Shown in pieces: positions 20,892-36,192 of a stretch of 64,000 nucleotides of DNA. A program made the position numbers and the translations under genes. Position 1 is the first letter of the stretch; the number at the start of each line of letters is the position of its first letter. The DNA comes from Streptomyces sp. NA02950 (GTDB taxonomy: Bacteria; Actinomycetota; Actinomycetes; Streptomycetales; Streptomycetaceae), in contig NZ_CP054916.1 of assembly GCF_013364155.1 (NCBI RefSeq), forward strand, positions 5,143,001 to 5,207,000, read 5' to 3'. The notes under the pieces are model-generated. The model saw only the letters and a program-made list of their open reading frames with translations. It did not search any database and was not told the DNA's origin.

Positions 20892-20964
20892 CCGACTTAG
20901 CTCAGCTGGTAGAGCACCGCTCTTGTAAAGCGAAGGTCGTCGGTTCGAACCCGACAGTCGGCTC
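20892..20964 (+). tRNA. tRNA-Thr(TGT)
   Basis: 73 nt. Acceptor stem GCCGACT pairs with AGTCGGC, discriminator T. D arm TTAGCTCAGCTGGTAGAGC, anticodon loop CTTGTAA with anticodon TGT, T arm GTCGGTTCGAACCCGAC. CCA is not encoded. Its 3' half is the integration site of the adjacent element, whose end restores the gene. Confidence 0.97.
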
Positions 20965-20967
20965 TGA
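20920..20967 (+). repeat. attL (48-bp direct repeat with 36145-36192)
   Basis: Begins at the anticodon stem (GCTCTTGTAAAGCGAAGG...) and runs 3 nt past the tRNA 3' end. Identical over 48 bp to 36145-36192, and the flanks differ on both sides. The integrase gene begins 95 bp inside. Confidence 0.93.
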
Positions 20968-21062: not shown

Positions 21063-22259
21063 CTAGGCGGCGAGCTGCGCACGCAGCTTTTCGAGAGCGG
21101 CATTCCGCCCGATGTCGAGTGCGTCGGCGACCTCGTCCAGCCGATCCGGCCACAGGTGCCCGTACACGTCCAGCGTCATCGCCGCGGACTTGTGTCCGAG
21201 CATGAGCTGAACCACCTTGACGTCAGCGCCGGCCGCGATGGCGAGCGACGCCGCGGTGTGCCTCAGCTTGTGCGGCGTGATCCCGAGTTCGGTGAGCCCG
21301 GCCGCCTTCACCGCAGGGTCGAAGATCCTGCCCCGGAAGTTCGAGTATCGGAGCGGTCCGCCTTCCGGCGCGGTGTACAAGAGCCCGTCCGCCCCCGCCG
21401 CGTCCCCTATCGGCCGCAGTTCCTCGGCGAACGACCGGGGGAGCGGCACCGAACGCTTCTCGTGCGTCTTCACCGGCCCGAGTTCGAGCTTGCCCTTGAC
21501 GTCGCTGTACGCCTGGACGATGCGCAGCCGTCGCGTGTCGACGTTGAGCCGCCGGCCCTTGGCCGCGATCGCCTCGCCCCACCGGATGCCGCAGTAGCCG
21601 AGCGTCAGCACCAGCAGCCGGTACTCACCCGCCGCGTTGGCCAGGGCCTCAAGCTGCTCGTGCGAGAGGTATACGTGATCGTCGTCGTCATCGCGGCGCG
21701 GCAGGTCGTGTTCCGTCGCCGGACTGGCCGCGATCCGGTGCGACTTCACCGCGTGCTTCAACACCGCGGAGAACACCCGATAGATCTTCACCACGCGGGC
21801 CGCGCCGAGCTTCCGTCCGGACTTGCCGGGCTTCTCGCACAGCTCGTCAACCCACGTCGAGACGTCGTCCCAGGCGATCGCCGCAACCTGCCACGATCCC
21901 CAGTAGGGGAGGACGTAGCTGTCCAGGATCTCCCGGTAGTCCGCTTTGGTGCGGCGGCCCTGCTTGCGCAGCTTGCCGAACCACTCCTCGGCCACAACCG
22001 TCACGGCAGCCTTGCCCGACTGCGGGTCACGGTACGAACCCTTGTCGAGTCGCCCGGTCAGCGTCTGCTTCTCCGCCTCGGCCTGCGGCAACTTCTGGAA
22101 CGTCTTGGCTTTCGGCTTGCCATCCGGCCCGTACCAGCGCACCCGCCACCTGCCCGGCGGCTGCCGCTTGCTGCCCGCCTTCTTCGCGGCCTGCCACTTC
22201 TCCATGGCTGCCTGGTAGTCGGCGTGGCCGGCGCGGTCCTCAATCCAGACCCTAGCCAT
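21063..22259 (-). CDS. int: tyrosine recombinase (integrase)
   Basis: 398 residues from ATG 22259, directly preceded by GGGGGGAGAGG. An N-terminal Arm-binding part (RWRVRWYGPDGKPKAKTF) is followed by a core-binding domain and the catalytic domain. Catalytic residues visible: Arg in CGIRWGEA (about 226), His-x-x-Arg in PHKLRHTAAS (about 330-333), His in LGHKSAAMT and the nucleophile Tyr in LDVYGHL (about 365). Intact. It recombines the 3' end of tRNA-Thr, 95 bp away. Its start overlaps the repressor stop by 8 nt, so it is cotranscribed with the repressor. Confidence 0.95.
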   Translation of the reverse strand: MARVWIEDRAGHADYQAAMEKWQAAKKAGSKRQPPGRWRVRWYGPDGKPKAKTFQKLPQAEAEKQTLTGRLDKGSYRDPQSGKAAVTVVAEEWFGKLRKQGRRTKADYREILDSYVLPYWGSWQVAAIAWDDVSTWVDELCEKPGKSGRKLGAARVVKIYRVFSAVLKHAVKSHRIAASPATEHDLPRRDDDDDHVYLSHEQLEALANAAGEYRLLVLTLGYCGIRWGEAIAAKGRRLNVDTRRLRIVQAYSDVKGKLELGPVKTHEKRSVPLPRSFAEELRPIGDAAGADGLLYTAPEGGPLRYSNFRGRIFDPAVKAAGLTELGITPHKLRHTAASLAIAAGADVKVVQLMLGHKSAAMTLDVYGHLWPDRLDEVADALDIGRNAALEKLRAQLAA

Positions 22260-22809
22260 CCTCTCCCCCCGCCTGATCACGTAGTCGGTCGACGTCCTCG
22301 GCGAGCCCATCCAGCAGCTCGCGGAGCCGACGCGGCGGGAGCCCGGTGACGTCCCCCGCCTTCGCCATCTGCCCCCATAGGTCCCGCAGCCAGGGCGGGA
22401 GGCCGTACAGCTGGTACTCCAGCAGTTCGGTCTGCTCGTTCCCCGGGGCCATCTTCAGTGGGCGGCGCGTGCTGGCCCATGCCCAAGCGTCCGATGCGGG
22501 TGTGGGGCCCATGCCCGTTACCTCAACCGACTCTTGGTCGGAGTCGGTCAGGGGGAGGAGCAGCGCGGCAGGCGACACACCGAGAACTACCGCCAGGGCG
22601 GCGAGGTCGTCGCTCGTCACGACCCGCTCACCCTTCTCCATGCGCGTGATGCCCGAGGCCGGGATGGAGCGCCCAGCTCGTTCCAGCATCCCGGAGAGCT
22701 GTCGGGTTGTGATGCCGCGGCGTTCGCGGAGACGCGAAAGGTTCGCCGCGACGGTCTTGCCGGTGGGCCCGATCTCGATCGCGCGGCGCCCGCGCTGCTG
22801 CTCAGTCAT
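22252..22809 (-). CDS. XRE-family repressor-like regulator
   Basis: 185 residues from ATG 22809 (MTEQQRGRRAIEIGPTGKTVAANL). The HTH spans about 20-80: LSRLRERRGITTRQLSGMLERAGRSIPASGITRMEKGERVVTSDDLAALAVVLGV. The C-terminal 100 residues are unfamiliar (LPPWLRDLWGQMAKAGDVTGLPPRRLRELL). Placed between the integrase and a divergent early operon, where a lysogeny repressor is expected. An upstream start would extend into the divergent promoter. Confidence 0.88.
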   Translation of the reverse strand: MTEQQRGRRAIEIGPTGKTVAANLSRLRERRGITTRQLSGMLERAGRSIPASGITRMEKGERVVTSDDLAALAVVLGVSPAALLLPLTDSDQESVEVTGMGPTPASDAWAWASTRRPLKMAPGNEQTELLEYQLYGLPPWLRDLWGQMAKAGDVTGLPPRRLRELLDGLAEDVDRLRDQAGGEDG

Positions 22810-22943: not shown

Positions 22944-23150
22944 ATGACCGACCCGCTCCTGACCCCCAAGGACGTGGAAGCCGAATACGGCATCGATGCG
23001 CAGACGCTCGCCAACTGGCGGTGGATGGGCATGGGGCCCGACTACATCAAGACCAGTCCAGCGAGGTCGGCACGAGTGCACTACCGCCGATCCGCGATCG
23101 ATCGGTGGCTCGATGCCCGGACGGTTCAGACCGGGGGCACGGCGGCATGA
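22944..23150 (+). CDS. excisionase-like small HTH protein
   Basis: 68 residues from ATG 22944 with GAGGTG upstream. MTDPLLTPKDVEAEYGIDAQTLANWRWMGMGPDYIKT is the winged helix of the MerR/AlpA excisionase type (HTH_17), with RVHYRRSAIDRWLDAR as the second half. First gene of the rightward early operon, divergent from the repressor; could act as excisionase or as an activator. Its stop overlaps the next start (ATGA). Confidence 0.85.
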   Translation: MTDPLLTPKDVEAEYGIDAQTLANWRWMGMGPDYIKTSPARSARVHYRRSAIDRWLDARTVQTGGTAA

Positions 23151-24112
23151 CCGACATGCAGAACGCCCCCGACCCGGTGGCACGGGCGGGGGCGCAACAC
23201 GACCAGCAGGGCGGCGGGTCTGTCGACATCGTGCCACACGGCCTCGCATGGCGGCAGGCGCTCCACGCGGCCACCAGCGCGGCGCGGCGTGGTCTGCACG
23301 TCTTTCCGATCGGTCGGGCCAAGCTGCCCGCCATCCGGTCCCCGCATCGCGACGACCCGCGCGGTATCCCGCAGTGCCGCGGGGCGTGCGGGCGCCCCGG
23401 GCACGGCGTCCACGACGCCACCACAGACGCTCAGCGTCTCGCAGCGCTCTTCGCCGCTGCGCCGCACGCCACCGGCTACGGCATTGCGTGCGGGCGCGGG
23501 GCGTATCCCCTGCTCGGCATCGACCTTGACCGGAAGAACGGCGTGGACGGCGTGGTCTCCCTCGACGCGCTCGCCAGGCAGCACACGTTCACCGTGCCCG
23601 ACACCATGGTGATCGCCACCCCCTCGGGTGGTCTGCATCTGTGGTTCACGGGTCCGGCCGGCGCCCCGGTCCACAACAGCGCGAGCAAGCTCGGCCCCGG
23701 GATCGACGTCCGCGGATATGGCGGCTACCTCGTGGGTCCCGGGTCGTGGACCGCGAGGGGCGTATACCGCGTCGCCGAGCTGCGCGACGTCGCCGAACTG
23801 CCGGACCCCCTGCTGTCGTTGATGCTGCCCCCGCCGCCGGTCCGGCGCCCCCGCCCGGAGCCGCCTGCGCTGCCAGGCCCGCGCCGCTCGGCCGCGCTGC
23901 TCGGCCTGGTCAAGTTCGTGCTCCAGGCCCCCGAGGGCGAACTCAACAACCGCCTGTACTGGGCTGCCTGCCGCGGTTACGAGACCGGTGCCGACGCCGA
24001 GGCGTTCGGCCGCGCCCTGGTCGACGCGGCCGTCTCCCTCGGCCACCCCGAGCGAGCGGCCGAACGCACCGTGAAAAGCGCCCGCAACGCCCCCGTGAGG
24101 AACCGCGCATGA
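23147..24112 (+). CDS. bifunctional DNA primase/polymerase (Prim-Pol) protein
   Basis: 321 residues, ATG overlapping the previous stop. The Prim-Pol fold is recognised from ATSAARRGLHVFPIGRAKLPAI, the zinc-like cluster CRGACGRPGHGVHDATTD, ATGYGIACGRG...LLGIDLDRKNG (catalytic Asp pair), TPSGGLHLWF (His) and PGIDVRGYGGYLVGPGS. It should prime and copy the element's DNA together with the helicase encoded next, to which it is translationally coupled. Confidence 0.93.
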   Translation: MTDMQNAPDPVARAGAQHDQQGGGSVDIVPHGLAWRQALHAATSAARRGLHVFPIGRAKLPAIRSPHRDDPRGIPQCRGACGRPGHGVHDATTDAQRLAALFAAAPHATGYGIACGRGAYPLLGIDLDRKNGVDGVVSLDALARQHTFTVPDTMVIATPSGGLHLWFTGPAGAPVHNSASKLGPGIDVRGYGGYLVGPGSWTARGVYRVAELRDVAELPDPLLSLMLPPPPVRRPRPEPPALPGPRRSAALLGLVKFVLQAPEGELNNRLYWAACRGYETGADAEAFGRALVDAAVSLGHPERAAERTVKSARNAPVRNRA

Positions 24113-25923
24113 GCGACGAGAACGACTTCGACGAGCAGGCCCGGGAGATCCTGAGCCGGGCCGGGCTCGCCGAAGAGGGCAAGGGCCGCGGGCCTTCGCA
24201 GGCATCGCAGCTCGTTGCCCTCGCCCGGGAGCGCTACGAACTGTTCATGTCCGAGGACGGACGCCCGTACGGTGTGAAGCGCGACGGGCCCAACATCGCT
24301 CGTCCGCTCCGGGGCAAAGCTGGACTGCGGTCCGAGCTGTCCTTGATCTACACCGACGCCAACGGCGGGAACGCCCCCTCGCAATCCGCGCTCGCCGACG
24401 CCATGACCGTGTTGGAGGGCGCCGCCCAGGCCGAGGACCCGCGCGTGCCTCACATGCGCGTCGCCCGTGACGGCGACACCATCGTGGTCGACCTGGCGAC
24501 GTCGGACGGCCGGTGCGTCGTCGTCGGCCCGGACGGCTGGCGGCGCGAGAGCCGGTCCCCGGTGCTGTTCCGTCGCTCCGGGGCGATGAAGCCCCTGCCC
24601 GCTCCCGTCAGCGACGGCGACGGGCTGGCCAAGCTGCGGGACCTGCTGAACATGAGCGACGAGGGATTCCACCTGCTCGTCGCATGGCTGGTCGCCGCGT
24701 TCATCCCGGACCTGCCACACCCGATCCTGACGTTCCGCGGCGAGCAGGGCACCGGCAAGTCCTACAGCGCGAAGATGGTGATCGGCCTCGTTGATCCCTC
24801 CGGCGCCCCGAAGCGCACCGCGCCGCGCGACATCAAGTCGTGGGCCACACAGGCGTTCAACTCCTGGGCGCTGTGCCTGGACAACGTCTCGATCATCCCC
24901 GACTGGCTGTCCGACGCGCTGTGCCGGGCCGTGACCGGCGACGGCATCGTGGACCGCGCCCTGTACACCGACGACGACGTGGTGGTGCTGGAGTTCCGGC
25001 GGGTGCTGGCCATGACGACGATCGACGCTGGGGCCCTCGCTGGGGACCTGGCCGAGCGACTGCTGATGATCGAGCTGCACACCATCCCGGACAGCAAGCG
25101 GCGGGAAGAGGCCGAGATGGACGCGGCGTACGCCGACGCCCACGCCGCCATCCTCGCCTCGCTGTTCGACCTGCTCGCCCAGGTACTCAAGGTGCTCCCC
25201 GAGGTCCAGCTGACGGAACGCCCCCGCATGGCCGACTTCGCGCGCGTCCTCGCCGCTGTCGACCAGGTGCAGGGCTGGACGACCATGGACAGCTACCGGG
25301 CCAGCGCCCGGGACGCGGTGGCCGACGTGCTCGACGGCGAGCCGTTCGCTCAGGCCGTCGTCGCACTCGTGGACCGTGCGGGAGCCGAGGGCCTGACCCT
25401 CACCGCCTCGGAGTTGCTGGAGCGCGTTCCTACCCCGGACCGGCTGCCCAAGAAGTGGCCGAAGGACCCCACGAGGGCGGGTGGCCAGCTCAAGCGGCTC
25501 GCTCCGGCGCTGCGCACCATCGGCATCGATGTGGACGACAGCAAGCGCGGACCCAAGCCGAAGAAGCAGCGGCTGTACACGCTCACGGCATCAGCAGAGA
25601 GAAGGTACGAAGCAGCGTCCCCAGCGTTCCCCAACACCCTCGAAACCAGGGCTGGCCTGCGGGAACAGGGGGGACGCTGGGAGGGGGACGCTAGCGTCCC
25701 CCCGCCGACCGGGGGGACGCTGGGGAACGCTGAGGGGGACACTGCGCTCTTCGCAGCGTCCCCCCGAGGCGCCACCCCTGACCAGGGAGAACGGCGTGAG
25801 GGGGACGCTGGGGACGCTGGGGACGCTGAAATGCGCCCACTCTCTGATGACCTCACCTGTGTTGCGTGCGGTGAACCCTTCACCCCCTACGAGCCCGGCC
25901 AGACCACACACCCCGGATGCTGA
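24109..25923 (+). CDS. P-loop ATPase / helicase-like replication protein with C-terminal zinc motif
   Basis: 604 residues, ATG overlapping the Prim-Pol stop by 4 nt. The ATPase core holds Walker A FRGEQGTGKSYSAKM (about 212-226), a Walker B-like region LCLDNVSIIPDWLSDALCRAVTGDGI and an arginine-bearing segment VLAMTTIDAGALAGDLAERLL. A winged-helix-like part follows. The last 120 residues are low complexity, encoded by the GGGGACGCT repeats, and end with CVACGEPFTPYEPGQTTHPGC, a likely zinc site. Fits a phage or satellite replicative helicase. Confidence 0.88.
   Translation: MSDENDFDEQAREILSRAGLAEEGKGRGPSQASQLVALARERYELFMSEDGRPYGVKRDGPNIARPLRGKAGLRSELSLIYTDANGGNAPSQSALADAMTVLEGAAQAEDPRVPHMRVARDGDTIVVDLATSDGRCVVVGPDGWRRESRSPVLFRRSGAMKPLPAPVSDGDGLAKLRDLLNMSDEGFHLLVAWLVAAFIPDLPHPILTFRGEQGTGKSYSAKMVIGLVDPSGAPKRTAPRDIKSWATQAFNSWALCLDNVSIIPDWLSDALCRAVTGDGIVDRALYTDDDVVVLEFRRVLAMTTIDAGALAGDLAERLLMIELHTIPDSKRREEAEMDAAYADAHAAILASLFDLLAQVLKVLPEVQLTERPRMADFARVLAAVDQVQGWTTMDSYRASARDAVADVLDGEPFAQAVVALVDRAGAEGLTLTASELLERVPTPDRLPKKWPKDPTRAGGQLKRLAPALRTIGIDVDDSKRGPKPKKQRLYTLTASAERRYEAASPAFPNTLETRAGLREQGGRWEGDASVPPPTGGTLGNAEGDTALFAASPRGATPDQGERREGDAGDAGDAEMRPLSDDLTCVACGEPFTPYEPGQTTHPGC
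25614..25827. repeat. twelve iteron-like GGGGACGCT motifs inside the helicase gene
   Basis: Nine perfect copies: AGCGTCCCC at 25614, 25693 and 25755; GGGGACGCT at 25670, 25684, 25713, 25801, 25810 and 25819. Three one-base variants lie at 25623, 25722 and 25735. Copies at 25684/25693 form a perfect palindrome, and the last three are head-to-tail. Density and mixed orientation look like initiator-binding iterons, so this is a candidate replication origin. Confidence 0.85.
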
Positions 25924-25933
25924 GGAGACGACC

Positions 25934-26739: not shown

Positions 26740-26813
26740 TCGCCCGGGGGCCCGCCGCGGTCAACTCGGCACACGCCAACGGCGTTCAGAACCGCTTTTG
26801 GAGAGGAAGGCTC

Positions 26814-27290
26814 ATGCCCGCACGACGAACGGACCCCCCGAAGGGGTTGAAGCTCATCGAGCGTAAGCCTGCGCTGCGCGTCGCGAAGGAAGCCGAGATC
26901 GGTGGCTTGGGGTTGGACTGGTCGAACCGCCCTGGAGTGCTGGACGAGGCCGGGCTGACGGAGTGGGACCGGTTGGCCGAGGTGTACGCCATGGACGCCA
27001 CCCGGTTCCGCGAGGGCGAGCGGGCCGCGTTGGTGGCCTACTGCTCGTGGTGGTCGGCGTTCGCTTCGGCCGCGGCGGACGTACGGGATCGGGGGCCGGT
27101 GGTTGAGGGCCGGTCTGACATGGACCGCGGGCGGATGGTGAAGAACCCGGCCACGGTGGCGATGCGGGAGGCGTCGCAGCAGCTCCGGTACTGGGCGCGC
27201 GAACTGGGTCTGACGACGGACGCCCGGGTCCGGATCGGCCTGGCGGATACCGACGACCAGGGCCAGGACGACGACAACCCGTTTGCGTGA
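26814..27290 (+). CDS. terS: phage terminase small subunit (P27 family)
   Basis: 158 residues from ATG 26814 with GAGAGGAAGG upstream. The order PPKGLKLIERKP...IGGLGLDWSNRPGVLDEAGLTEWDRLAEVY, then FREGERAALVAYCSWWSAFASAA, and the end ...ATVAMREASQQLRYWARELGLTTDARVRI is the P27 pattern found in actinophage small terminases. TerS selects the DNA to be packaged. No large subunit follows, so packaging would need a helper phage's motor, as satellites do. Confidence 0.85.
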   Translation: MPARRTDPPKGLKLIERKPALRVAKEAEIGGLGLDWSNRPGVLDEAGLTEWDRLAEVYAMDATRFREGERAALVAYCSWWSAFASAAADVRDRGPVVEGRSDMDRGRMVKNPATVAMREASQQLRYWARELGLTTDARVRIGLADTDDQGQDDDNPFA

Positions 27291-27300
27291 GGAGAGAGGC

Positions 27301-27740: not shown

Positions 27741-28013
27741 AATCAACGCAGGTTGATCGACGGCCAGCAGTAGGGACCGCGAGCGACCATTCCGTGAGCG
27801 CGGATGCGAGGGGCGCGGCGGCGGCCACCGGTAGCCAGTCCGGCCGCCAAGTCGCCCGTCCCGAGCAGACCCCCGCGGAATGGCGCCGCCAGCTCTCCGG
27901 CCCGCTCAGTTCGGCGCCGCCCGGGACCCACCGTTGCAGGCCCGCCTACCGCGTCAGCGGGGCCGTGCCTCCGGCCGTGCCGGGAAGACACCACGACTTC
28001 CCGAAGGACTGAG

Positions 28014-29216
28014 ATGGATCTCGAAACGATGCGTGCCCGCCTCAAGCTGCTCGCCGCGAAGGCCACGGGCATCAAGGCCAAGGCGGACGCGGAGAAGCGC
28101 GACTTCACCGCGGAGGAGGCAACGGAGCTGCGGGCGATCCTGGACGAGGCACAGCCGCTCACCACACAGATCAAGACCGCGCAGGAAGGGGAAAGCCTCC
28201 GCAAGACGCTCGCTGAACTCGGCGACTCGATCGCGGCCCCGACGTCGCGGAAGGCGGACGTGCACCCGCGCGTGAAGGCGTCCGGCGGCACCGACTGGGC
28301 CGACACCATGCTGAAGACGCTGGGCGGCCCGCAGGGCTACAAGGGCATCCTCGCGGGCGGGACCATCGCGGTGAGCGTGCCTCTCGACCCGGAGCCGGTC
28401 CGCATGGACGTGCCGGTGCTGTCGCTGCGGCAGCTCATGCCGAACGTCGCCAACACGACGGGCCGCTTTGCGTACCTGCGTCAGACGACCCGTACGAACA
28501 ACGCGGCCGCGGTCGCTCCGGGCGCGAAGAAGCCGACTTCCGTCTACACCCTGTCGCGCGTCGATGACCGGGTGCGGACGATCGCGCACCTGTCGGAGCC
28601 GATCGCGAAGCAGGATCTGGACGACGTGGCGATGCTGCGGCAGTTCATCGACCAGGAGATGCGTCTCGGTCTGGATCTGGCTTTGGAGGCACAGATCCTG
28701 AACGGGGACGGCACCGGCGAGAACATGACCGGCATCGGGAACGTGTCCGGGTCGCAGGCGCAGGCGTTCACCACGGACCTGCTGGTCACGACCCGTAAGG
28801 CCGTGACCAAGCTGGAGCGGTACGGCTACATGACGAACGCCGCGTTCGTGATGACCCCGGACGACTGGGAGGCCATCGAACTCCTGGCGGACAACGAGGC
28901 CCGGTTCTACTACGGCGGCCCGCAGGCCAGCGTGAACCCCGCGGCCCGCCGACTGTGGGGCGCCCCGGTGGTCGTCTCCGAGTCCGCGACAACCGGCACC
29001 GCGTACCTGGCCGACTTCTCACAGATGCAACTCCAGGTGCGCCAGGAGGGCATGCTCGACTGGTCGGAGAACGTCTACGACCCGAACGCCCTGGGCGCCG
29101 GCAGCGGCGCCTCGGACTTCGAACGGAACATGCTGCGCTTCCGGTTCGAGGGCCGGTTCGGTCTCGAGATCCTGCGCCCCTCGGCGATCGTGGAGGTGGA
29201 TCTGACCGCGTCGTAG
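28014..29216 (+). CDS. HK97-fold phage major capsid protein
   Basis: 400 residues from ATG 28014 (AAGGA upstream). Residues 1-70 are a helical delta/scaffold-like region (MDLETMRARLKLLAAKATGIKAKADAEKRDFT). The HK97 core follows: VPVLSLRQLMPNVANTTGRFAYLRQTTRTNNAAAVAPGAKKPTSVYTLSRVDDRV, then LRQFIDQEMRLGLDLALEAQILNGDGTGENMTGI and LWGAPVVVSESATTGTAYLADFSQMQLQVRQEGM. The whole chain is present. No capsid protease or portal gene is nearby, so a helper would be needed to build particles. Confidence 0.92.
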   Translation: MDLETMRARLKLLAAKATGIKAKADAEKRDFTAEEATELRAILDEAQPLTTQIKTAQEGESLRKTLAELGDSIAAPTSRKADVHPRVKASGGTDWADTMLKTLGGPQGYKGILAGGTIAVSVPLDPEPVRMDVPVLSLRQLMPNVANTTGRFAYLRQTTRTNNAAAVAPGAKKPTSVYTLSRVDDRVRTIAHLSEPIAKQDLDDVAMLRQFIDQEMRLGLDLALEAQILNGDGTGENMTGIGNVSGSQAQAFTTDLLVTTRKAVTKLERYGYMTNAAFVMTPDDWEAIELLADNEARFYYGGPQASVNPAARRLWGAPVVVSESATTGTAYLADFSQMQLQVRQEGMLDWSENVYDPNALGAGSGASDFERNMLRFRFEGRFGLEILRPSAIVEVDLTAS

Positions 29217-29246
29217 CGGTCTCTCGACTGCGCCTGAACAGCACGA

Positions 29247-29269
29247 CGGCCCCCACTGAGTGGGGGCCG
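29247..29269. terminator. hairpin after the capsid gene
   Basis: CGGCCCCCACT (29247-29257) pairs with AGTGGGGGCCG (29259-29269), 31 bp after the stop. Confidence 0.78.
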
Positions 29270-29329
29270 ATCGACGTACCCCGGAGCCGACCGGGGGTAC
29301 CGTTCTGGTGTCGAAGCAGAACGGAGCCC

Positions 29330-30532
29330 ATGATGGCACAAGCCACTGACGGGCGACCCGAGGGAGTTGGCGCGCGCATCCACGAACTGCGCGCCCTGCG
29401 CAACTACTCCCTGCGGGAACTCGCCCAACGAGCCCACGTCTCCAAGAGCATGCTGTCCGACGTCGAACGCGGGGAACGCCATCCGAGCGAGCAGGTCATC
29501 GCCGCGGTCGCCAAGGCGTTAAACGTATCGGTACCCGTCATCCACGGGCAGCCCTTCATCGAGCAGCTGCGCAAGGATCAGCTCGACCAGCTCATTGCCC
29601 CGCTGTCGAACGCCCTTGACGACTGGGACATCCCGCCCGCCGGTGACGTGCCGCCGCCACGGCCGCTGACGGAGATCGAGGCGACGATCAAACGTGTCTA
29701 CAAACTCCGCTCCAAGGGGCGGTTCGGCGACCTGGCGCGGATGCTGCCCGGCACGCTGGCCGAGCTGTCATACGCGGTCCTCGACGCGCGCCCCGGGGAT
29801 CGTGAGCGGTTCTGTTGGCTGCAATCTGAGGCGGCCCTCGGCGGGTTCAGCGTCGCCTACAAGCTCGGCTATCTGGATCTCGCACGCTTGGCGCTGGCTC
29901 GGATGGCGGCCGCGGCTGCACATTCGGGGGACCCGCGGCAAGTGGCTGTTGAGCGGCTGAAGCGCGCTCAGTTGTCCGCCAACGGACCGGCCATAGAGAT
30001 GGGTCTGCGGCTGGTCAACCGCGCCCTTGAGGATCTGGACGACGACCACACAGCGGAGACCCGCGCGGTCCGCGGTGGCCTCATGCTGAAGGGCGTCCAG
30101 CTGCACGCCCTGGTAGGCCGCGGCGACGAGTCCGACACTTGGCTGACGGAGGCGCACGGGCTCGCGCGCGACCTCGGCGAGACCGATCACTACGGCATGG
30201 TGTTCGGCCCGACCAACGTCGGCCAGCACGGCGTGGCAGCGGCGGGCGACAGGGACGAACACGGGCTCGCGCTGGAGCGGGCCTCGGCAGTCCGCATCCC
30301 CGAGGGCTATTCGCCGTTGCGGGCGGGGCAGTTCTTGGTGGACCGTGCACGATCGCAGGCGCTGACGGCTCGGCCTGATGATGCGCTCACCTCCCTCCAG
30401 GAGGCGCGGAAGGTGACGCCGCAGCAGACGCGCTATCACCCGACGACGCGGGAGACAGTCGGCACGCTGCTGCGGGCTCGGCCGCGGCCGTCGCGAGAAC
30501 TGCGCGAGTACGCCTTGTGGAGCGGCGTGTAG
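29330..30532 (+). CDS. XRE-family regulator with C-terminal TPR-like region
   Basis: 400 residues from ATG 29330 (a second ATG follows immediately). The HTH is IHELRALRNYSLRELAQRAHVSKSMLSDVERGERHPSEQVIAAVAKALNV, residues ~15-65. The rest is alpha-helical repeat sequence (ARLALARMAAAAAHSGDPRQ, GLMLKGVQLHALVGRGDESDTWLTEA, ALTSLQEARKVTPQQTRYH), as in quorum-type or sporulation-linked XRE-TPR regulators of Streptomyces. It may pair with the DUF397 gene downstream, an association seen widely in this genus. Confidence 0.88.
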   Translation: MMAQATDGRPEGVGARIHELRALRNYSLRELAQRAHVSKSMLSDVERGERHPSEQVIAAVAKALNVSVPVIHGQPFIEQLRKDQLDQLIAPLSNALDDWDIPPAGDVPPPRPLTEIEATIKRVYKLRSKGRFGDLARMLPGTLAELSYAVLDARPGDRERFCWLQSEAALGGFSVAYKLGYLDLARLALARMAAAAAHSGDPRQVAVERLKRAQLSANGPAIEMGLRLVNRALEDLDDDHTAETRAVRGGLMLKGVQLHALVGRGDESDTWLTEAHGLARDLGETDHYGMVFGPTNVGQHGVAAAGDRDEHGLALERASAVRIPEGYSPLRAGQFLVDRARSQALTARPDDALTSLQEARKVTPQQTRYHPTTRETVGTLLRARPRPSRELREYALWSGV

Positions 30533-30551
30533 CTTCTCGCTCACCCAGAGT

Positions 30552-30592
30552 CAAGCCCCTGATGTCCGCAACGAGCGGACATCAGGGGCTTG
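30552..30592. terminator. perfect 18-bp hairpin after the XRE-TPR gene
   Basis: Arms 30552-30569 and 30575-30592 (CAAGCCCCTGATGTCCGC and its complement), 5-nt loop AACGA, 19 bp past the stop. Confidence 0.87.
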
Positions 30593-30641
30593 TCCGGTCG
30601 ACAAGATGTGACGGTCAACACGCCGCTACATGGAGCCGACC

Positions 30642-31058
30642 ATGACGACCAGAGCCGAGCAGTGGACACCACCGACCGGGGAGTGCCCCGAGGCGTTACC
30701 GGCGGGCAAGTGGTGGGACGCCGTCCGTGTGGAGGAGCCCATCGGCGAGCGAGCCCTCGCGTTCCTCGGCAGCCACTCCGGCGCCGTCATCCAGGACCGT
30801 TGCAACACCCTCTACTGGCTCATCACCCCCGGTGCCGCGGTGTCATGGAATCTTCGGAACGTCCATGTCCTCTCCCATGCCGAGGGCGTGGCCACCTACC
30901 TCGGCGTGCCCCCCGTTCGTCGACTGGCCCGGCCCGGGACGTTCTGGCGGGTGCCGTTCACGCAGGACTGGTACCTCACCGACGCGTGGCGGCTGTACAA
31001 GGCCCTGGCTCACGCCGTGCTCACCGAGCCGGACACCGGTGAGGGGGAGGCTCGGTGA
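30642..31058 (+). CDS. hypothetical protein
   Basis: 138 residues from ATG 30642, preceded by GGAG; the ATG at 30630 lacks a site. Contains GERALAFLGSHSGAVIQDRCNTLYWLITPGAAVSW and WRVPFTQDWYLTDAWRLYKALAHAVL. Similar to uncharacterised cargo proteins often found near XRE/DUF397 genes in Streptomyces, but I cannot name a domain. Overlaps the next start (GTGA). Confidence 0.72.
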   Translation: MTTRAEQWTPPTGECPEALPAGKWWDAVRVEEPIGERALAFLGSHSGAVIQDRCNTLYWLITPGAAVSWNLRNVHVLSHAEGVATYLGVPPVRRLARPGTFWRVPFTQDWYLTDAWRLYKALAHAVLTEPDTGEGEAR

Positions 31059-31222
31059 CCGCCGGCCAGGAGTCGGCCGTCCACCCCGACCAGCCGACCG
31101 CGTGGGCGCGGTTCCTCGGCCACGCCGAGGGCTGCGCTGACTGCCGCGACAGTCAACGGTGCATGGCTGGGAACGAGCTGCACGACGCCGTCCGGCGCGA
31201 AGCGCGCGCCGCGGCCCCATGA
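31055..31222 (+). CDS. small hypothetical protein with CxxC motif
   Basis: 55 residues, GTG 31055 overlapping the previous stop, with GAGGGGGAGG upstream. Reads TAGQESAVHPDQPTAWARFL, then GHAEGCADCRDSQRCMAGNELHDAVRREARAAAP. C-x2-C-x5-C may bind zinc. Coupled to the preceding gene, so probably its partner. Confidence 0.66.
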   Translation: MTAGQESAVHPDQPTAWARFLGHAEGCADCRDSQRCMAGNELHDAVRREARAAAP

Positions 31223-31384
31223 CCGGGCGGGCCGCTGCCGATCCGGGCCCCCGTACCGGACGCACCTGCGGCGGCCCGCCCTCCCCGACCCCCATCCGGC
31301 CGTTTACGTGACGGTCGACGGCCGGATGGGTTGCAAGGCGGCACGGGGACCGACTCCCCGTAGCACTGTGAAGGGATATGCATC

Positions 31385-31591
31385 ATGACCGGACAGTCGT
31401 TCGAGTTCGTGAGCACAGCGTTCTGCCGCGACAAGAAGGTGGGCAACTGCCCGCAGGTCGCTCTCAACGTCCCCGGCGTCGTTGCCGTCCGGGACAGCGA
31501 GCGACCCGACGCGATCGTTACCATGACGCCCGACGCCTGGCGGCTGCTCACCAACGCCGTCAAGGCGGGCGAGTACGACCTGACCGCCTGA
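31385..31591 (+). CDS. DUF397 domain protein
   Basis: 68 residues from ATG 31385 with AAGGGAT upstream. The order FVSTAFCRDKKVGNCPQVALNVPGVVAVRDSERPDAIVTMTPDAWRLLTNAVKAGEY is the DUF397 pattern. Such proteins are usually encoded beside XRE regulators in Streptomyces and are thought to modulate them. The XRE-TPR gene upstream fits, though two small genes lie between. Confidence 0.85.
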   Translation: MTGQSFEFVSTAFCRDKKVGNCPQVALNVPGVVAVRDSERPDAIVTMTPDAWRLLTNAVKAGEYDLTA

Positions 31592-31603
31592 GAGCAGGAC
31601 CCT

Positions 31604-31774
31604 GTGGAGAAGTGCCCCCGCTGTTCCGATGAGTGCCCTACGGACCCTGAGAGCGGTTTGCCGTGGTGCGCTCGCTGCGGGGAGTACTTCGGGCTCAAGC
31701 CGCCTGAGTGCAAGGGGCTGTGGTCGCGCCGCGATACGGTGACCCGTGCCCCATGGCGGCGGCGCGAGCACTGA
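31604..31774 (+). CDS. small zinc-ribbon protein
   Basis: 56 residues from GTG 31604 with AGCAGGA upstream. The order VEKCPRCSDECPTDPESGLP and then WCARCGEYFG has two C-x2-C knuckles 15 residues apart, a classic zinc ribbon, followed by a basic tail ending APWRRREH. Starts 12 bp after the DUF397 stop and ends just before a terminator. Function unknown; possibly DNA- or RNA-binding. Confidence 0.6.
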   Translation: MEKCPRCSDECPTDPESGLPWCARCGEYFGLKPPECKGLWSRRDTVTRAPWRRREH

Positions 31775-31788
31775 GCGGGAGGCTTACC

Positions 31789-31830
31789 GGCCCCGTCCGC
31801 GTGTCGCCCAGGTGGCACGCGGACGGGGCC
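31789..31830. terminator. 15-bp hairpin ending the rightward genes
   Basis: GGCCCCGTCCGCGTG (31789-31803) pairs with 31816-31830 across a 12-nt loop. A second long hairpin follows at 31889-31899/31921-31931 (AACGGCCCCGG and its complement). Beyond this lies the repeat array. Confidence 0.75.
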
Positions 31831-31950
31831 CTTGCCGTCTCTGGACTCGGCCGCCCAGCCGCCCGCCGCGCTCGGCAGCGGGCGCGCGAACGGCCCCGGG
31901 ACGCGCGCGGGAACCGCGTTCCGGGGCCGTTGTGCTGCTGGTGGTGAAGG

Positions 31951-32397
31951 GTGCCGCCCGCGCGTACAGGGTCGGTGGAACATGGCTATGGCAGACGAAG
32001 ATCCAGCCGGTGTGCCGCCCGCGCGTACAGGGTCGGTGGGGTGGGGGGAGTGCGGTGTCAACAATTGTGGACGTGCCGCCCGCGCGTACAGGGTCGGTGG
32101 AGCGTCCGCCGGTGTGCAAAATTTTTCACACGAGTGCCGCACACGTGCACGGGGTGAGTGCCAAGTCGGTCTTCCTGGGAAACCCGACTTCGCCGCCGTG
32201 GCACGTGAGAAGCGATAGGTGGTTTTCCTGGGAAAACCACCTATCGCGCTCGCACCGCCCGCGCGGGGACGAGAGCTGTCGCACGGGCTACTGAGTCATA
32301 TGACTCAGTCGCACGCCCGTGCGCGAGGATGAGAGCCGCCGAGGTCGTGTCTGGAATTCCAGACACTCGCACCGCCCGCGCGTACGAGGTCAGTGGC
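31951..32397. CRISPR. CRISPR-like direct-repeat array (three exact plus about five decayed 28-bp repeats), no cas genes
   Basis: Exact 28-bp repeats start at 31951, 32012 and 32073 (GTGCCGCCCGCGCGTACAGG followed by GTCGGTGG), with a decayed copy at 32134, all exactly 61 bp apart, giving 33-bp spacers. Weaker copies follow near 32192, at 32252, 32311 and 32369 at 57-59 bp spacing; the last matches 24 of 28. The 61-bp period is that of type I-E CRISPR, and the repeat shares GTGC and CCCGCGCG with actinobacterial I-E repeats. Most spacers contain palindromes, which is not expected of captured DNA, so a functional CRISPR is doubtful. Confidence 0.5.
32057..32366. repeat. array of six unrelated palindromes phased with the repeats
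   Basis: Palindromes at 32057-32072 (one mismatched pair), 32112-32131 (one mismatched pair), 32163-32190 (two mismatched pairs), 32214-32245 (perfect 15-bp arms, TG loop), 32290-32309 (ACTGAGTCATATGACTCAGT, perfect, inside outer arms GCACGGGC/GCCCGTGC) and 32347-32366 (GTGTCTGGAATTCCAGACAC, perfect). Sequences are unrelated, but symmetry is kept. Centres are 53-70 bp apart. AT-rich centres in GC-rich surroundings. Confidence 0.9.
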
Positions 32398-32452
32398 CGC
32401 AGTTCGGTTTGGTCCACCAGCCGCACTTGTCGCAATACTCATGGCCGTTCAT
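32390..32452 (-). CDS. possible 20-residue Cys/His mini-protein
   Basis: MNGHEYCDKCGWWTKPNCGH from ATG 32452, with GGGAG six bases upstream. C-x2-C and a C-x-H pair could bind one zinc. It overlaps the end of the preceding membrane-protein gene by 14 nt, in keeping with the overlaps in the rest of this operon. Too short for certainty. Confidence 0.42.
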   Translation of the reverse strand: MNGHEYCDKCGWWTKPNCGH

Positions 32453-32870
32453 CGCAGGCTCCCTTCCGTGCCTTCTCGACCCGCTGCACGGGTGGCTGTA
32501 TGGACCACGCGACCCCTTCTACGATCGGAGAGGGGTACCACCTCTCACCCTCTTGACCAGCCTCTTCGTGGCCGAGAGGGGTATCGGGGTCCGGTGGGGG
32601 AGTGGCGGACGAATCGGACATGCGCCACGCGGCGACCGCCCACACGACCGGCACAGCGGCGACGAAGTACGGCGCCCGGCCGAGCAGCTGGCCGTAGAAC
32701 GCCACCCCCACCAACGCCCCGCCCGAGCGGGCGACGAACCGCTTCCCGGAGTCCTCGGGGGCGAGCCAGCCGCCCGCCCCGTGGAGTAGCAGCCCGGTGC
32801 CGAGCGCGAGCCGCTGCCCGGCCGTACGGGACCACTCGACCGCGGCCGCCGCCATCTCGCGGGCGTTCAC
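32439..32870 (-). CDS. hypothetical membrane protein of the right-arm operon
   Basis: 143 residues from GTG 32870, overlapping the upstream stop. Hydrophobic stretches TGLLLHGAGGWL and GALVGVAFYGQLL...YFVAAVPVVWAVAAW suggest membrane segments; the C-terminus is acidic and hydrophilic. No family. Small coupled membrane proteins of this sort are common in Streptomyces integrative elements. Confidence 0.72.
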   Translation of the reverse strand: MNAREMAAAAVEWSRTAGQRLALGTGLLLHGAGGWLAPEDSGKRFVARSGGALVGVAFYGQLLGRAPYFVAAVPVVWAVAAWRMSDSSATPPPDPDTPLGHEEAGQEGERWYPSPIVEGVAWSIQPPVQRVEKARKGACDERP

Positions 32871-33376
32871 AGCAGCCCCACCGTCCAGTCACCGGCCGCG
32901 GAGACGACTGGCGAGAGGACGAACCCTGCGGCTCCGGCGACACCGGACGACAGGCCCAGCGAGATGCCGCAGACGAGGTTGAAGAAGATGTCCCAGCGGA
33001 AGCCGCGCTTGCGGGTCCACACGGCCACCAGCACCACCGTGGCGATGATGACCACCGCGTGCCCACCGTCGCTCAGGACGAGGTTGGAGTGCCGGGTGAC
33101 GTTCGGGGAATCGCCGCCCACACCGTGCTTAAGTGCGGCGTCGCCGATCGCGGAGGAGCCCCACAGACCGACGTCGGCCCCGCGGCCGAGGATTCCCCCG
33201 GCGGACAGGATGAGCAGCACCCCGTAGAGCGCGGTGATGAAGAACGGGACGAGGTCCTTGAGCGCGGCGAGGTTGCGCTTCTTGTGGCCGGTCCACCAGC
33301 GGGTGACGTTCCATGCGGCGATGGACAGACCGACCGTGACGCCGCCGAGGCTGACGACGTTGTGCGTGAAGTTCAT
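32867..33376 (-). CDS. hypothetical integral membrane protein
   Basis: 169 residues from ATG 33376, with GAGGAAC upstream. At least four hydrophobic segments: VVSLGGVTVGLSIAAW, LVPFFITALYGVLLILSAGG, HAVVIIATVVLVAVW, and IFFNLVCGISLGLSSGVAGAAGFVL. No known domain. Its stop overlaps the next start (GTGA). Confidence 0.75.
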   Translation of the reverse strand: MNFTHNVVSLGGVTVGLSIAAWNVTRWWTGHKKRNLAALKDLVPFFITALYGVLLILSAGGILGRGADVGLWGSSAIGDAALKHGVGGDSPNVTRHSNLVLSDGGHAVVIIATVVLVAVWTRKRGFRWDIFFNLVCGISLGLSSGVAGAAGFVLSPVVSAAGDWTVGLL

Positions 33377-33384
33377 GATGTTCC

Positions 33385-33531
33385 TCAGTGCGAGAGCGCG
33401 GCGAAGCTGGCCGCGGCGAGGGAGAGAACGAGAGCGGTGGTGCCGAGCACGGGCACCAGGGCGCGGCGGTCGACGGCGGCCAGGAGGCCGAGGGCGACCG
33501 CCGCGCCGCCCGCGAAGAGCGCGAGCAGCAC
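33385..33531 (-). CDS. small membrane protein, 48 aa
   Basis: From GTG 33531 with GGAAGG upstream: a helix LLALFAGGAAVALGLLAAV, a short basic loop DRRAL, and a second helix VLGTTALVLSLAAASFAAL. It fills the 170-bp space between two operon genes and ends 8 bp before the next start. Two-helix hairpin topology. Confidence 0.6.
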   Translation of the reverse strand: MLLALFAGGAAVALGLLAAVDRRALVPVLGTTALVLSLAAASFAALSH

Positions 33532-33546
33532 GACGGGTGCCTTCCG

Positions 33547-34365
33547 TCAGGTGGGTGCGAGGGCGGCGCGGCGTACGCGCCGGCCGTAGGAGTCGGACGC
33601 GTCGAGCCGCTTGCCGATGGCGGTTCCGGTCAGTTCCGGTTCCGTGGCCAGCCAGCCGCGAGCGGTCTGCACGTGGCGAGCGAATCGGCCCGCGTCGGTG
33701 TCCTCGGCGGGCTCGTCGGACCGATCGGAACCGCGCTCGGTTCCGCCGGTTCCGCCCGCCGGTTCCGGTGTCTCGTCCGGCTCGGCCTCGGGGTGCTGCT
33801 TCGGCTGGTCAGCGTCGGTTCCGGTGCTGGTTCCGCCGTGGTTCCGCTCCAGCTCGGCGAGGGCGACGAACGGGCCGAGCACGGGCACGCTCGGGGTCGT
33901 CTCGACCGCCGCCGGAACTGGCCGGGCCTTGATCGGTTCCGGCACCGGTTCCGCCGGAACGGGCGGGACGTAGATCGGTTCCGCTACCGGTTCCGGCAGG
34001 GGTCCAGAACTGGACACCTCGCTCGGACCGCGGCCCGCCCGGAGCGCGTGCACCCGCCACAGAACCACCGGAGCGATCGCCGAGACAGCCACCACCAGCC
34101 ACGGCGACACCGCGAGCATGCCGCCCTGCATCAGGTGCGCCGCAGCGTTCGTAGCGACCATCAGTAGCACCGGAGGGAACACCTCCCGGCCCACGTCCAT
34201 GGCCCGCAGCGCGTACGCATCGATGGCGACGGGCAGGCCCGCGGCCACCAAATCGGCGTAGCCGCAGCGTTGGGCGAGGAACCATTCCCCGTGCGCGGAG
34301 ATGGCGATGCACGCGGCCATGGCGATCCAGCCGAGGAAGTCACGGTCCCCCTGGCGGTTCCTCAC
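33547..34365 (-). CDS. DUF2637-domain membrane protein
   Basis: 272 residues from GTG 34365, with GGAGGGAGG upstream. The DUF2637 region is about 1-110: DFLGWIAMAACIAISAHGEWFLAQRCGYADLVAAGLPVAIDAYALRAM, followed by VFPPVLLMVATNAAAHLM and WLVVAVSAIAPVVLWRVHALR. A Pro/Glu linker and a C-terminal HTH-like tail (ARGWLATEPELTGTAIGKRLDASDSYGRRVRRAAL) follow. DUF2637 genes are typical of actinobacterial plasmids and integrative elements, where they are grouped with spread or transfer functions; the tail suggests DNA contact. Confidence 0.85.
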   Translation of the reverse strand: MRNRQGDRDFLGWIAMAACIAISAHGEWFLAQRCGYADLVAAGLPVAIDAYALRAMDVGREVFPPVLLMVATNAAAHLMQGGMLAVSPWLVVAVSAIAPVVLWRVHALRAGRGPSEVSSSGPLPEPVAEPIYVPPVPAEPVPEPIKARPVPAAVETTPSVPVLGPFVALAELERNHGGTSTGTDADQPKQHPEAEPDETPEPAGGTGGTERGSDRSDEPAEDTDAGRFARHVQTARGWLATEPELTGTAIGKRLDASDSYGRRVRRAALAPT

Positions 34366-34745
34366 CGGCCTCCCTCCTCGCGGAGAAGTGCGGCGAGATG
34401 ACCGGCGAGCGCGTGGAGCTGGGCGCCGTGCCGGATCAGGGACTCGGCGATGCCGTGCAGCTGCGCAGGATCGGACGGGTAGAAGTCGCCGTCCAGCCCG
34501 ACGTTGACGAACGGCCGGCGGCCGGGCTCCCGCTGCTCGGTGAACGGCCGCTGCTCCAGGAAGGCGGGCATGAGGTAGACCGTGCCGCGGCTGGTGCCGA
34601 GGGTGAGGCCGGTCTCGGGGCCCTCGTGGAAGAGGTCGACGCGGTACCCACCGTCCTCGTGGCGGGCGGTGCACCAGGGCGGGCAGGTGAGGGTGACGGC
34701 GCCGTGATCGCGGGTCTGCACGGTGACCGTGCGGGGCGCGCTCAC
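34362..34745 (-). CDS. DUF6907-like protein
   Basis: 127 residues from GTG 34745, overlapping the preceding stop. VTLTCPPWCTARHEDGGYRVDLFHEGPETGLTL, then RPFVNVGLDGDFYPSDPAQLHGIAESLIRHGAQLHALAGHL. The CPPWC...H motif is shared with the larger protein encoded at 35017, so both seem to belong to one family found on actinobacterial mobile elements. Confidence 0.74.
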   Translation of the reverse strand: MSAPRTVTVQTRDHGAVTLTCPPWCTARHEDGGYRVDLFHEGPETGLTLGTSRGTVYLMPAFLEQRPFTEQREPGRRPFVNVGLDGDFYPSDPAQLHGIAESLIRHGAQLHALAGHLAALLREEGGR

Positions 34746-35020
34746 TGCTGGCCCTCGGCGTTGGTGCGCGACTGGCCAAAGGCGCGGTAGCCGGTGGGCG
34801 GGTGCTCGGCGAGGCGAGCGCGCAGGTAGTCGGCGGACCATCCGGGGTCGTCGCCGCGCTGGAGGACGCCGCGGAGGGCGATCGTCGCGTGCATGGCCCG
34901 GTTGGCCATCAGTCGGTCGTGGATCTCGGCGTCGCCAACCGTGGCCGGGGCCGGGATGTCGAGCGCTTCGAGGACGGCGCGCAGCAACTCGGCCGCGGGC
35001 TCGGGGATGTTGTGGCTCAC
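34742..35020 (-). CDS. hypothetical protein
   Basis: 92 residues from GTG 35020, overlapping both neighbours by 4 nt. Helical (NIPEPAAELLRAVLEALDIPAPATVGDAEIHDRLMANRAMHATIALRGVLQRGDDPGWSADYLRARLAEHPPTGY). No recognised family. Confidence 0.72.
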   Translation of the reverse strand: MSHNIPEPAAELLRAVLEALDIPAPATVGDAEIHDRLMANRAMHATIALRGVLQRGDDPGWSADYLRARLAEHPPTGYRAFGQSRTNAEGQQ

Positions 35021-35940
35021 TGGGCACCACCGTTCGCCTGCCAGTCGGCGCGGGCCTGGACGAGCTGGGCGTGGACGGCACGCAGCTGGTCGACGTGTGC
35101 GGCGAGCTTGTCGATGACCGCACCGAACTCGTCCGGGCCCATGGGGCCGGTCCAGAAGTCCTGGTCCCCGATCATCTGCATGTTGACGTGCGGGATGCGC
35201 TGCTCGGCCTCGTCGGCGTGGGGGATCACGGCGACGTCGGCGATGAGGACCAGGTCCTCATACGTCTCGCGGCTCTCGGTGAGGACCAGGGGCATGGCGA
35301 CGTGGTCGCTCTGGTGCCAGATGTCGGACGGGTGGATAGTGCTTTCCGTCTCCCGCTGGTGGATCTCTGTCGTGGTGCACCAGGTGGGGCAGGTCTCCGT
35401 GTGCTCGTCGCCGTCGTGCGTGCGCATCGTCCAGGTGGGCGGCGCGGCGGGCTGCGGGGCAGCGGGCGCGCCCTGCTCGATGGCAGCGAGCTGATCGGCG
35501 AGCCGATCGAATCCGCATGCCCCGTGACGCATGCGGGAAGCGAGCTGCCGGAGCCCGGCCGAGTTGGTGTCAACGTCTGAGTTGGCCGAGGCGTAGACCG
35601 CCGCGACCGTGCGCGGGGTGGGGTCGTCGTTGGTGAACAGCTCGGCGGTGATCAGGGGTTCACGGGCACCGGGCGCGGTGATCCGGACCGGGCTGCTCTC
35701 CACCCTGGCGGGGGTGTCGGCGAGGAACTGGGCGATGACCGGGAACTGCGCGTCAACGGACCGGCGCACGGTCTCCCGCTCGGCAGCCTCGGCGTTGAGC
35801 TGGCGGGAGTCGGCGAGCGCAGCCGAGCCGGTCAGAGTCGGAAACAGCCTGCGGGCGTCGGCGTCGGCGAGCAGTTCGCCGAGCGGCACGGCCGGGGCCA
35901 GAGCGGTGCAGTGCGTGGGGGTCTGTACGGTGATGCTCAT
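35017..35940 (-). CDS. DUF6907-like protein, first gene of the right-arm operon
   Basis: 307 residues from ATG 35940 with AAGGAG upstream. The N-terminal half is helical (GELLADADARRLFPTLTGSAALADSRQLNAEAAERETVRRSV). The second half has ETCPTWCTTTEIHQRETESTIHPSDIWHQ, which matches CPPWCTARH in the protein encoded at 34362, and ends PMGPDEFGAVIDKLAAHVDQLRAVHAQLVQARADWQ. Leads an operon of at least seven overlapping genes reading leftwards from near attR. Confidence 0.76.
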   Translation of the reverse strand: MSITVQTPTHCTALAPAVPLGELLADADARRLFPTLTGSAALADSRQLNAEAAERETVRRSVDAQFPVIAQFLADTPARVESSPVRITAPGAREPLITAELFTNDDPTPRTVAAVYASANSDVDTNSAGLRQLASRMRHGACGFDRLADQLAAIEQGAPAAPQPAAPPTWTMRTHDGDEHTETCPTWCTTTEIHQRETESTIHPSDIWHQSDHVAMPLVLTESRETYEDLVLIADVAVIPHADEAEQRIPHVNMQMIGDQDFWTGPMGPDEFGAVIDKLAAHVDQLRAVHAQLVQARADWQANGGAQ

Positions 35941-36144
35941 GGTGCGGACTCCTTGCTTGGAAGGGTCCGGCCGTAGGCCCCGGATCAGGTGTTTGCCCAC
36001 CTTCCGGGGCCGCCCCGTTCTCGTACACATGCCGTACATATGAGAGCGGGATAAGCCGGGATGACTCGGGATGCGTCGGGACGCGAAATCCCAGGTCAAC
36101 CGGCCTGTGAGGGTCTTTCCGCTGGTAGCTCAGCCACCCCTGAC

Positions 36145-36192
36145 GCTCTTGTAAAGCGAAGGTCGTCGGTTCGAACCCGACAGTCGGCTCTG
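36145..36192 (+). repeat. attR (48-bp direct repeat with 20920-20967)
   Basis: Identical to the tRNA-Thr 3' half and 3 nt beyond. The sequence upstream of it does not form a complete tRNA. It is also the left junction of the older remnant that follows. Confidence 0.92.

Follow-up and report, generated by a model that had tools for sequence, protein, structure and literature searches.

The 64,000-nt stretch of Streptomyces sp. NA02950 DNA analysed here (hereafter the window, whose coordinates are used throughout) contains a 15.3-kb integrated element at positions 20918-36192, bounded by an exact 49-bp direct repeat. Its features are listed below with the strand where one applies; identities are to proteins of the related elements L071 and L072, the latter from Streptomyces sp. 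NEAU-Y11.

20918..20966: attL, left copy of the 49-bp repeat, 3' part of tRNA-Thr (ARAGORN tRNA 20891-20964)
21063..22310, minus strand: tyrosine integrase (PF00589, E=8.6e-20)
23021..24112, plus strand: primase-polymerase-like protein (phrog_5852, E=1.3e-38)
24109..25923, plus strand: possible helicase/ATPase (GEQGTGKS motif by eye; 76% identical protein in L071; no match in a PHROG search)
26814..27290, plus strand: terminase small subunit (PF05119, E=1.1e-14; phrog_83)
27804..29216, plus strand: HK97-type major capsid protein (PF05065, E=5e-37)
28955..30532, plus strand: XRE-type regulator (phrog_5823, E=2.9e-61; HTH_3; domain from about residue 136)
31385..31591, plus strand: DUF397 protein (PF04149; 81% identical in L072)
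31604..31774, plus strand: small Cys-rich ORF, zinc-ribbon-like by eye (76% identical in L072)
31789..31830: terminator-like hairpin closing the plus-strand operon
31889..31931: second hairpin, ahead of the array (a hairpin stands here in L072 too)
32393..32455, minus strand: 20-aa Cys-rich ORF, end of the convergent operon (86% identical in L072)
32867..33376, minus strand: 169-aa ORF (94% identical in L072; no match in a Pfam search)
36144..36192: attR, right copy of the exact 49-bp direct repeat

Broadly, the element combines an integrase and att repeats at a tRNA gene with its own capsid (PF05065) and terminase small subunit (PF05119) within 15.3 kb, which are cfPICI-like features, and by gene content it looks like a capsid-encoding phage satellite, much as the first-pass annotation of this DNA had supposed when it placed the array in a satellite-like element. 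Mobilisation would presumably be by a helper phage. The Walker motif and the zinc-ribbon-like ORF are our own assignments by eye. To the right of attR lie a second integrase-like ORF (36258-37345) and then, by eye, an excisionase-like ORF, together a neighbouring, possibly truncated element; a 45-bp tandem repeat (3.6 copies, 95% matches) was also seen in the window at 2356-2515.

Beyond the end of the plus-strand operon at 31774 come the two hairpins, and the opposing minus-strand operon ends at 32393. The gap is filled by an array of repeats and palindromes (31951-32397), with the following parts:

31916..31951, plus strand: conserved 'leader' into the first repeat (31/36 bases as in L072)
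31951..31978, plus strand: repeat copy 1 (28/28)
32012..32039, plus strand: repeat copy 2 (28/28)
32073..32100, plus strand: repeat copy 3 (28/28)
32134..32161, plus strand: decayed repeat copy (20/28)
32252..32279, plus strand: decayed repeat copy (17/28)
32369..32396, plus strand: last repeat copy (23/28)
32057..32072: palindrome 1 (weak and read by eye, with a single mispaired position; scores under 7)
32112..32131: palindrome 2 (GTG-N14-CAC, paired throughout but for one position)
32163..32190: palindrome 3 (read by eye; 2-nt centre, arms paired except at two positions; scores under 7)
32212..32247: palindrome 4 (36 bp; 17-bp perfect arms, central TG unpaired; AGGTG...CACCT, N16)
32290..32309: palindrome 5, ACTGAGTCATATGACTCAGT (perfect)
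32347..32366: palindrome 6, GTGTCTGGAATTCCAGACAC (perfect; GTG-N14-CAC)

The exact 28-mers at 31951, 32012 and 32073 and the 20/28 copy at 32134 follow each other at 61-bp spacing, which confirms the three exact repeats and decayed fourth reported by the first-pass annotation. About four later decayed copies had also been claimed, among which those at 32369 (23/28) and 32252 (17/28) were recovered and those at 32195 and 32311 fell outside the ten best ungapped matches; as a background, matches of at least 20/28 never occur in the element and those of at least 17/28 occur with a frequency of 0.0008 per position. All six palindromes described earlier were found, with the correction that the one given as perfect at 32214-32245 is not strictly so, its central TG being unpaired. 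By eye, the first spacer (31979-32011) holds no palindrome.

Four palindromes with a score of at least 7 lie in the 447-bp array, where a Markov model predicts 0.10 on average and never gave more than 2 in 300 trials, and four are likewise held by 5 of 1272 sliding 447-bp stretches of the 64-kb window, the array-covering ones included. The repeat-palindrome array is real and beyond chance, and the chance origin that had been allowed for can be set aside. Searches of 392 Streptomyces genomes with the array DNA did not recover the array outside its own genome: some match at E<=0.001 was found in 153 genomes, the non-self ones being short (best E 3.7e-8), and the exact 24-mer repeat core had no match in the genome contigs.

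Seven elements with related capsids (L066, L067 and L069-L073; capsids 53-75% identical) were compared, the comparison stopping short of eleven other Streptomyces genomes in which the capsid is more distant; an orthologous array was found in one of the seven, L072. Its layout comprises a hairpin, a conserved leader, three identical 28-bp repeats (spaced 61 and 72 bp) and three decayed ones. On either side of the two arrays, the flanks align with 84% identity over 457 bp and 89% over 1030 bp; between them, the alignment is limited to 94 bp around the leader, and the two repeats have 17/28 bases in common. Six palindromes in the L072 array score at least 7 (0.11 expected), one of them within a repeat copy; the array palindromes are AGGTGTCGGAAATCCGACACCT, GTGTCTACCACGGTAGACAC, TCAGGTGAGGAAAATTCCTCACCTGA, AGGTGCGAGGTTCCTCGCACCT and GTGGGTCAGACTGACCCAC, and none is common to L072 and the window. 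As read from this one sister element, the symmetry of the array is kept at an orthologous place while its sequence is replaced. The earlier suggestion that selection seems to act on the dyad thus gains from an array that was turned over and is again palindromic; the proposed check for symmetry in homologous arrays could be run on this one ortholog, with a favourable outcome. In both arrays, the repeats are identical near the leader and decayed at the distal end, a polarity which suggests that new units may be added at the leader end.

The right-hand flanking genes are common mainly to L072 and L073. The latter shares right-hand genes with the window, is without the DUF397 and Cys-rich genes, and has one palindrome at the orthologous place, a lone 37-bp GATCTGAGGGTTTGGATAATATACAAACCCTCAGATC (L073:14136-14172) without repeats, which may represent an ancestral or a reduced form of the array. 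Three palindromes stand in a row in L067, in a different gene context; no such array was seen in the remaining four related elements, nor within ~1.5 kb of DUF397/Cys-rich homologues at nine other Streptomyces loci. As separate observations, four GC-rich palindromes lie within 500 bp on the opposite side of a DUF397/Cys-rich homologue (L082:900-1328), and the Streptomyces coeruleorubidus element holds, by eye, a run of ~180-bp units (L069:14560-16400), each with its own short inverted-repeat vocabulary and with CAGGTC/GACCTGC words between.

The array geometry is one that we take to be type I-E-like from its period and the look of its repeat, and a decayed CRISPR array of 61-bp period would account for the 28-bp repeats, for the period itself and for leader-proximal identity with distal decay in both arrays. 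The repeat core CCGCCC(A/G)CGCG is also found in CRISPR-like Streptomyces arrays of 61-bp period. Six CRISPR-like Streptomyces repeats with this core have uninterrupted 6-7-bp stems and 4-nt loops (-10.9 to -14.1 kcal/mol), whereas the window repeat folds differently, with 7 interrupted pairs and a 9-nt loop (-10.6 kcal/mol; the fold of the L072 repeat has -7.0 kcal/mol). Its best ungapped match to these six is 18/28, about the same as the 17/28 between the two arrays, which, with the fold, may speak against a CRISPR origin. Against it, too, stand the lack of any match to Cas1 (PF01867), on which the cas gene search was based, in either of two genomes (its own and that of L072) at E<=0.001, compared with 9/14 control genomes, and the fact that the spacers are dyads. 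No convincing protospacer match for 31979-32370 was found among 50,697 phage and 72,556 plasmid records at E<=10, and where array palindromes recur in viral contigs, by eye the dyad alone matches and not its flanks. We therefore regard a CRISPR origin of the array as unlikely, with decay from a type I-E-like array the least probable of the readings weighed here, and agree with the first-pass annotation that its spacers are unlikely to have been captured by a CRISPR system.

The first lead to the nature of the palindromes was a single match of one L072 palindrome in viral contigs, which fell within the coding region of an HTH gene (contig L171). Among the five homologous phage genes checked first, a different palindrome stands at the same codons in L175 and L176/L177, a weak one in L178 and none in L174. 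In this HTH gene family, which is spread over actinobacterial phages, prophages and plasmids, a palindrome directly follows the HTH codons and is mostly AGGTG-N12-CACCT, its inner bases varying from gene to gene. In a test set of 43 genes (drawn from 63 loci by removing near-duplicates and loci without the motif), a palindrome with a score of at least 7 follows the HTH in 31 genes, compared with 4/162 control windows taken from these genes, and GTG-N12/13-CAC is present in 32, against 2.9 expected under synonymous recoding and 4/162 control windows; for 17 of the 43, the recoding p-value was below 0.01 (0.4 expected). The 11 genes without GTG-N12/13-CAC include three with visible weaker dyads (L195, L199 and L229) and one with none to speak of (L233). 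As an independent check, four further homologues were inspected, of which three plasmid loci have the palindrome (one of them, L262, with an HTH reading frame not annotated as a gene) and one phage gene has none. Neither of the two whole phage genomes examined (PFR1 and MoxS-R1) holds a second copy of the dyad within 6 mismatches. Constant in place and geometry and variable in sequence, this looks, as far as sequence comparison goes, like a self-identification site held within the HTH genes. The predicted structure of the HTH protein had no PDB match at E<=0.001.

Some plasmid loci deserve mention in their own right. In three actinobacterial plasmids (L260, L261 and L262), the HTH gene or frame stands shortly before a DUF2637 gene; the HTH gene of the Arthrobacter plasmid L260 holds a 32-bp perfect palindrome, and three AGTGCAGAATCTGCACT copies within ~160 bp of the same plasmid (L260:5732, 5822 and 5878) are possibly another site cluster.

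In L171, PFR1 and MoxS-R1, the HTH gene is followed by a member of phrog_5931. For the protein encoded after the HTH gene of L240 (predicted structure with a mean pLDDT of 84), the five best Foldseek matches in the PDB are all ParB proteins, the best with E=2.5e-3, a probability of 0.97 and a TM-score of ~0.25; none reaches E<=0.001, and no PDB sequence match to the partner protein was found at E<=0.1. Pfam ddrB-ParB was matched by 1/15 partner members (E=0.014), and in prophiGD43A-1 the HTH homologue is followed by two genes with a ParB-like annotation. The predicted fold of the partner is thus possibly ParB-N-like, and the HTH gene and its partner may form a split ParB/parS-like module. Both PFR1 (orf48, phrog_2149) and MoxS-R1 (gp26, phrog_3171) encode a separate replication-initiation-like protein, which weakens the case for another candidate, a replication origin inside an initiator gene.

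Palindrome 5 of the window provides a direct link between the array and these genes. Its arms, searched as ACTGAGTCA-NN-TGACTCAGT, recur in 10 viral contigs, with 16 sites spread over 14 stretches. Three of the contigs, L240, L243 and L248, carry all 18 arm bases in their HTH-gene site, whose centre stands +82 nt from the STRAI codon, as it does in the other HTH-gene sites. In 7 of the 10 contigs, the pattern lies outside such HTH genes, sometimes several times. Dispersed copies were noted in L244, L246 and L250 (one contig), in L242/L249 and in L247/L253, with constant arms and variable central two bases, and in an overlapping tandem near L244:5420. Palindrome 6 has one exact match, between two ORFs and outside an HTH gene of viral contig L172 (the tail genes of this contig, like the hosts of the viral contigs, are our own reading), and the relaxed form of palindrome 4, AGGTGGTTTT-N6-AAAACCACCT, has no match in viral contigs. 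Within 140 Streptomyces genomes, AGGTGCGAGG-NN-CCTCGCACCT was absent at <=1 mismatch, and GTGTCTGG-N4-CCAGACAC was present in two, its own and G085, where by eye it lies outside an HTH gene. The pattern searches covered window palindromes 4-6 and the L072 palindromes other than GTGTCTACC, TCAGGTGAGG, AGGTGTCGG and GTGGGTCAG.

On the L072 side, three palindromes match HTH-gene sites, that of L173 in all 20 arm bases (a match that is not independent, because L173 was located using an L072 palindrome) and those of L188 and L234 in the pentamer after GTG. Four sites are free of such circularity (L072 a, d and f, and L067 a), two of which match library pentamers, at a chance of ~0.028 each. In the window, two palindromes have N14 and one N16 between their outer motifs and two have neither pattern, versus N12/13 in the HTH genes. 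From these comparisons, the assignment of the array palindromes to the class of HTH-gene sites has good support for L072; for the window, a direct match suggests it for one of the six palindromes, and the rest would follow by orthology. That palindromes of the array's class are sites inside phage HTH genes goes beyond the first-pass annotation and is a finding of the sequence matches.

The element itself encodes no protein of this HTH family. No match to the family was found in the NA02950 genome, and those in the L072 genome are limited to two that are partial and N-terminal (E=3e-10 and 8e-9, covering positions 11-72 and 15-72 of the 245 in the model); the sites are thus probably meant for foreign proteins. 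Two matches in G320 are weaker than those of L072, and the candidacy of these host-genome matches (L072 and G320) as true family members was rejected, since by eye they have no STRAI-type HTH with its site.

It is tempting to see in the array a bank of sites recognised by the HTH/ParB-like proteins of foreign phages, acting as decoy or docking place, a reading to which we give a probability of about 0.53. The satellite-like element would carry several sites of differing specificity, with its own 28-bp repeat between them and no HTH-family gene; once a phage whose HTH protein fits one of these sites becomes active, this protein and its partner would bind the site on the satellite. Binding would most likely titrate an early phage protein or redirect it onto satellite DNA, which could in turn benefit the satellite. 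Double-stranded DNA would be the active form of the sites, since hairpins precede the array where it lies between convergent operons, and phage coding genes hold dyads of its class. The operator sponge and the partition site, both named among the possibilities in the first-pass annotation, come near this reading, and its interpretation as a whole is partly supported. A bolder version, which we hold to be rather unlikely, would make the array a protein-directed, non-CRISPR record of the phages met with: units of repeat and dyad would be added at the leader end, with dyads that match the self-sites of foreign HTH/ParB-like proteins, and helpers or rivals would be recognised or sabotaged without guide RNA, the phage HTH genes diversifying their self-sites as a self/non-self code.

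The main rival to capture by such sites is hijack of a helper complex, in which the sites would mimic helper origins, centromeres or packaging sites, so that an infecting helper would replicate, organise or package the satellite. This is possible, if on the doubtful side. A single site inside an early gene resembles the origins within phage initiator genes, as in lambda, whose origin lies within the O gene (PMC7157519); satellites are described as relying on helper functions (PMC10690885); and several specificities would fit several helpers. Against hijack, the separate initiation-like proteins of PFR1 and MoxS-R1 mean that the HTH gene need not be an initiator, and the element has a primase-polymerase-like gene of its own. 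Between the two, we infer decoy rather than hijack. A role as RNA hairpins or bidirectional terminators is suggested by the position between convergent operons, next to two hairpins. The dyad centres of 0-2 nt are a weak argument against an RNA role, as the other palindromes of the element are likewise short-looped (0-2 nt, with 2-5 nt in its terminator-like hairpins). Also against it are the cores, by eye A+T-rich and without T runs, the dyads of the same class at one fixed place inside phage coding genes, and the lack of any Rfam match for 31000-33300 up to E=1; the hairpin RNA raised by the first-pass annotation is accordingly not favoured, and we consider this reading quite improbable.

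The dyads might instead be operators bound by regulators that the satellite itself encodes (XRE, DUF397 or small Cys-rich proteins), and such proteins are indeed encoded beside the array and have gene homologues in L072. Each array nevertheless holds several unrelated dyads, and every dyad differs between the two elements, although their adjacent DUF397 and Cys-rich proteins have 76-81% identity. The XRE proteins, on the other hand, are only 28% identical, so that a changed regulator could explain part of the turnover; overall we judge own-regulator operators very improbable. For the bank of foreign recognition sites, which we continue to prefer, what the sequences show is the dyads, the turnover of one sister array with its symmetry intact, the sites in HTH genes and the sites in common; HTH binding, double-stranded DNA as the active form, the split ParB module, the decoy effect and the benefit to the satellite would be further steps, which we infer from these.

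In the literature searched, with most subscription papers outside its scope and several sources available in part, no account of such arrays or self-sites was found. Two things would then be new: an HTH family of phages, prophages and plasmids with an intragenic dyad conserved in place and variable in sequence, and a satellite-like element gathering dyads, some of HTH type, in a fast-turnover array of CRISPR-like geometry and polarity without a Cas1 match. If HTH proteins do bind the dyads, the specificity between satellite and phage could be read from DNA, and the question of multiple helpers would become testable.

Among known systems, one close parallel is a carried phage origin. A fragment of the origin of phage Sfi21 is reported to interfere with that phage (PER, phage-encoded resistance; PMC6356513), and lambda ori plasmids inhibit their phage likewise (PMC3349717). 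As in PER and the origin plasmids, a phage-type DNA site would here be carried elsewhere; unlike in PER, where the pieces come from one phage origin, several different dyads are carried in a satellite-like element. On whether the carried site is an origin, as it is in PER, there is one site per genome in both phages examined, and both have a separate initiation-like protein. The resemblance to ParB-parS lies in a palindrome at the gene of an HTH DNA-binding protein and perhaps in a partner whose best predicted-fold matches are ParB, whereas here the HTH and the N-domain would be separate proteins, the site is inside the HTH gene, its inner sequence varies between phages, and the array has sites without proteins. 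In the case of PLE and the origin-directed nuclease of ICP1 (PMC8263062), conflict between satellite and phage over short replicon recognition sequences is reported to make these sequences diversify; there the phage attacks the satellite's own origin, while here the satellite carries sites of foreign type. With type I-E-like CRISPR, the array shares 28-bp repeats, a 61-bp period and polarity, and it differs in having no Cas1 match, another repeat fold and dyads for spacers. Finally, like the Streptomyces satellite viruses MiniFlayer and MulchRoom and the capsid-forming PICIs (PMC10690885), the element is small and encodes a capsid; in the main text of that paper, where 'palindrom' occurs 0 times, a palindrome array is described for none of them, and such an array is what would set the NA02950 element apart.
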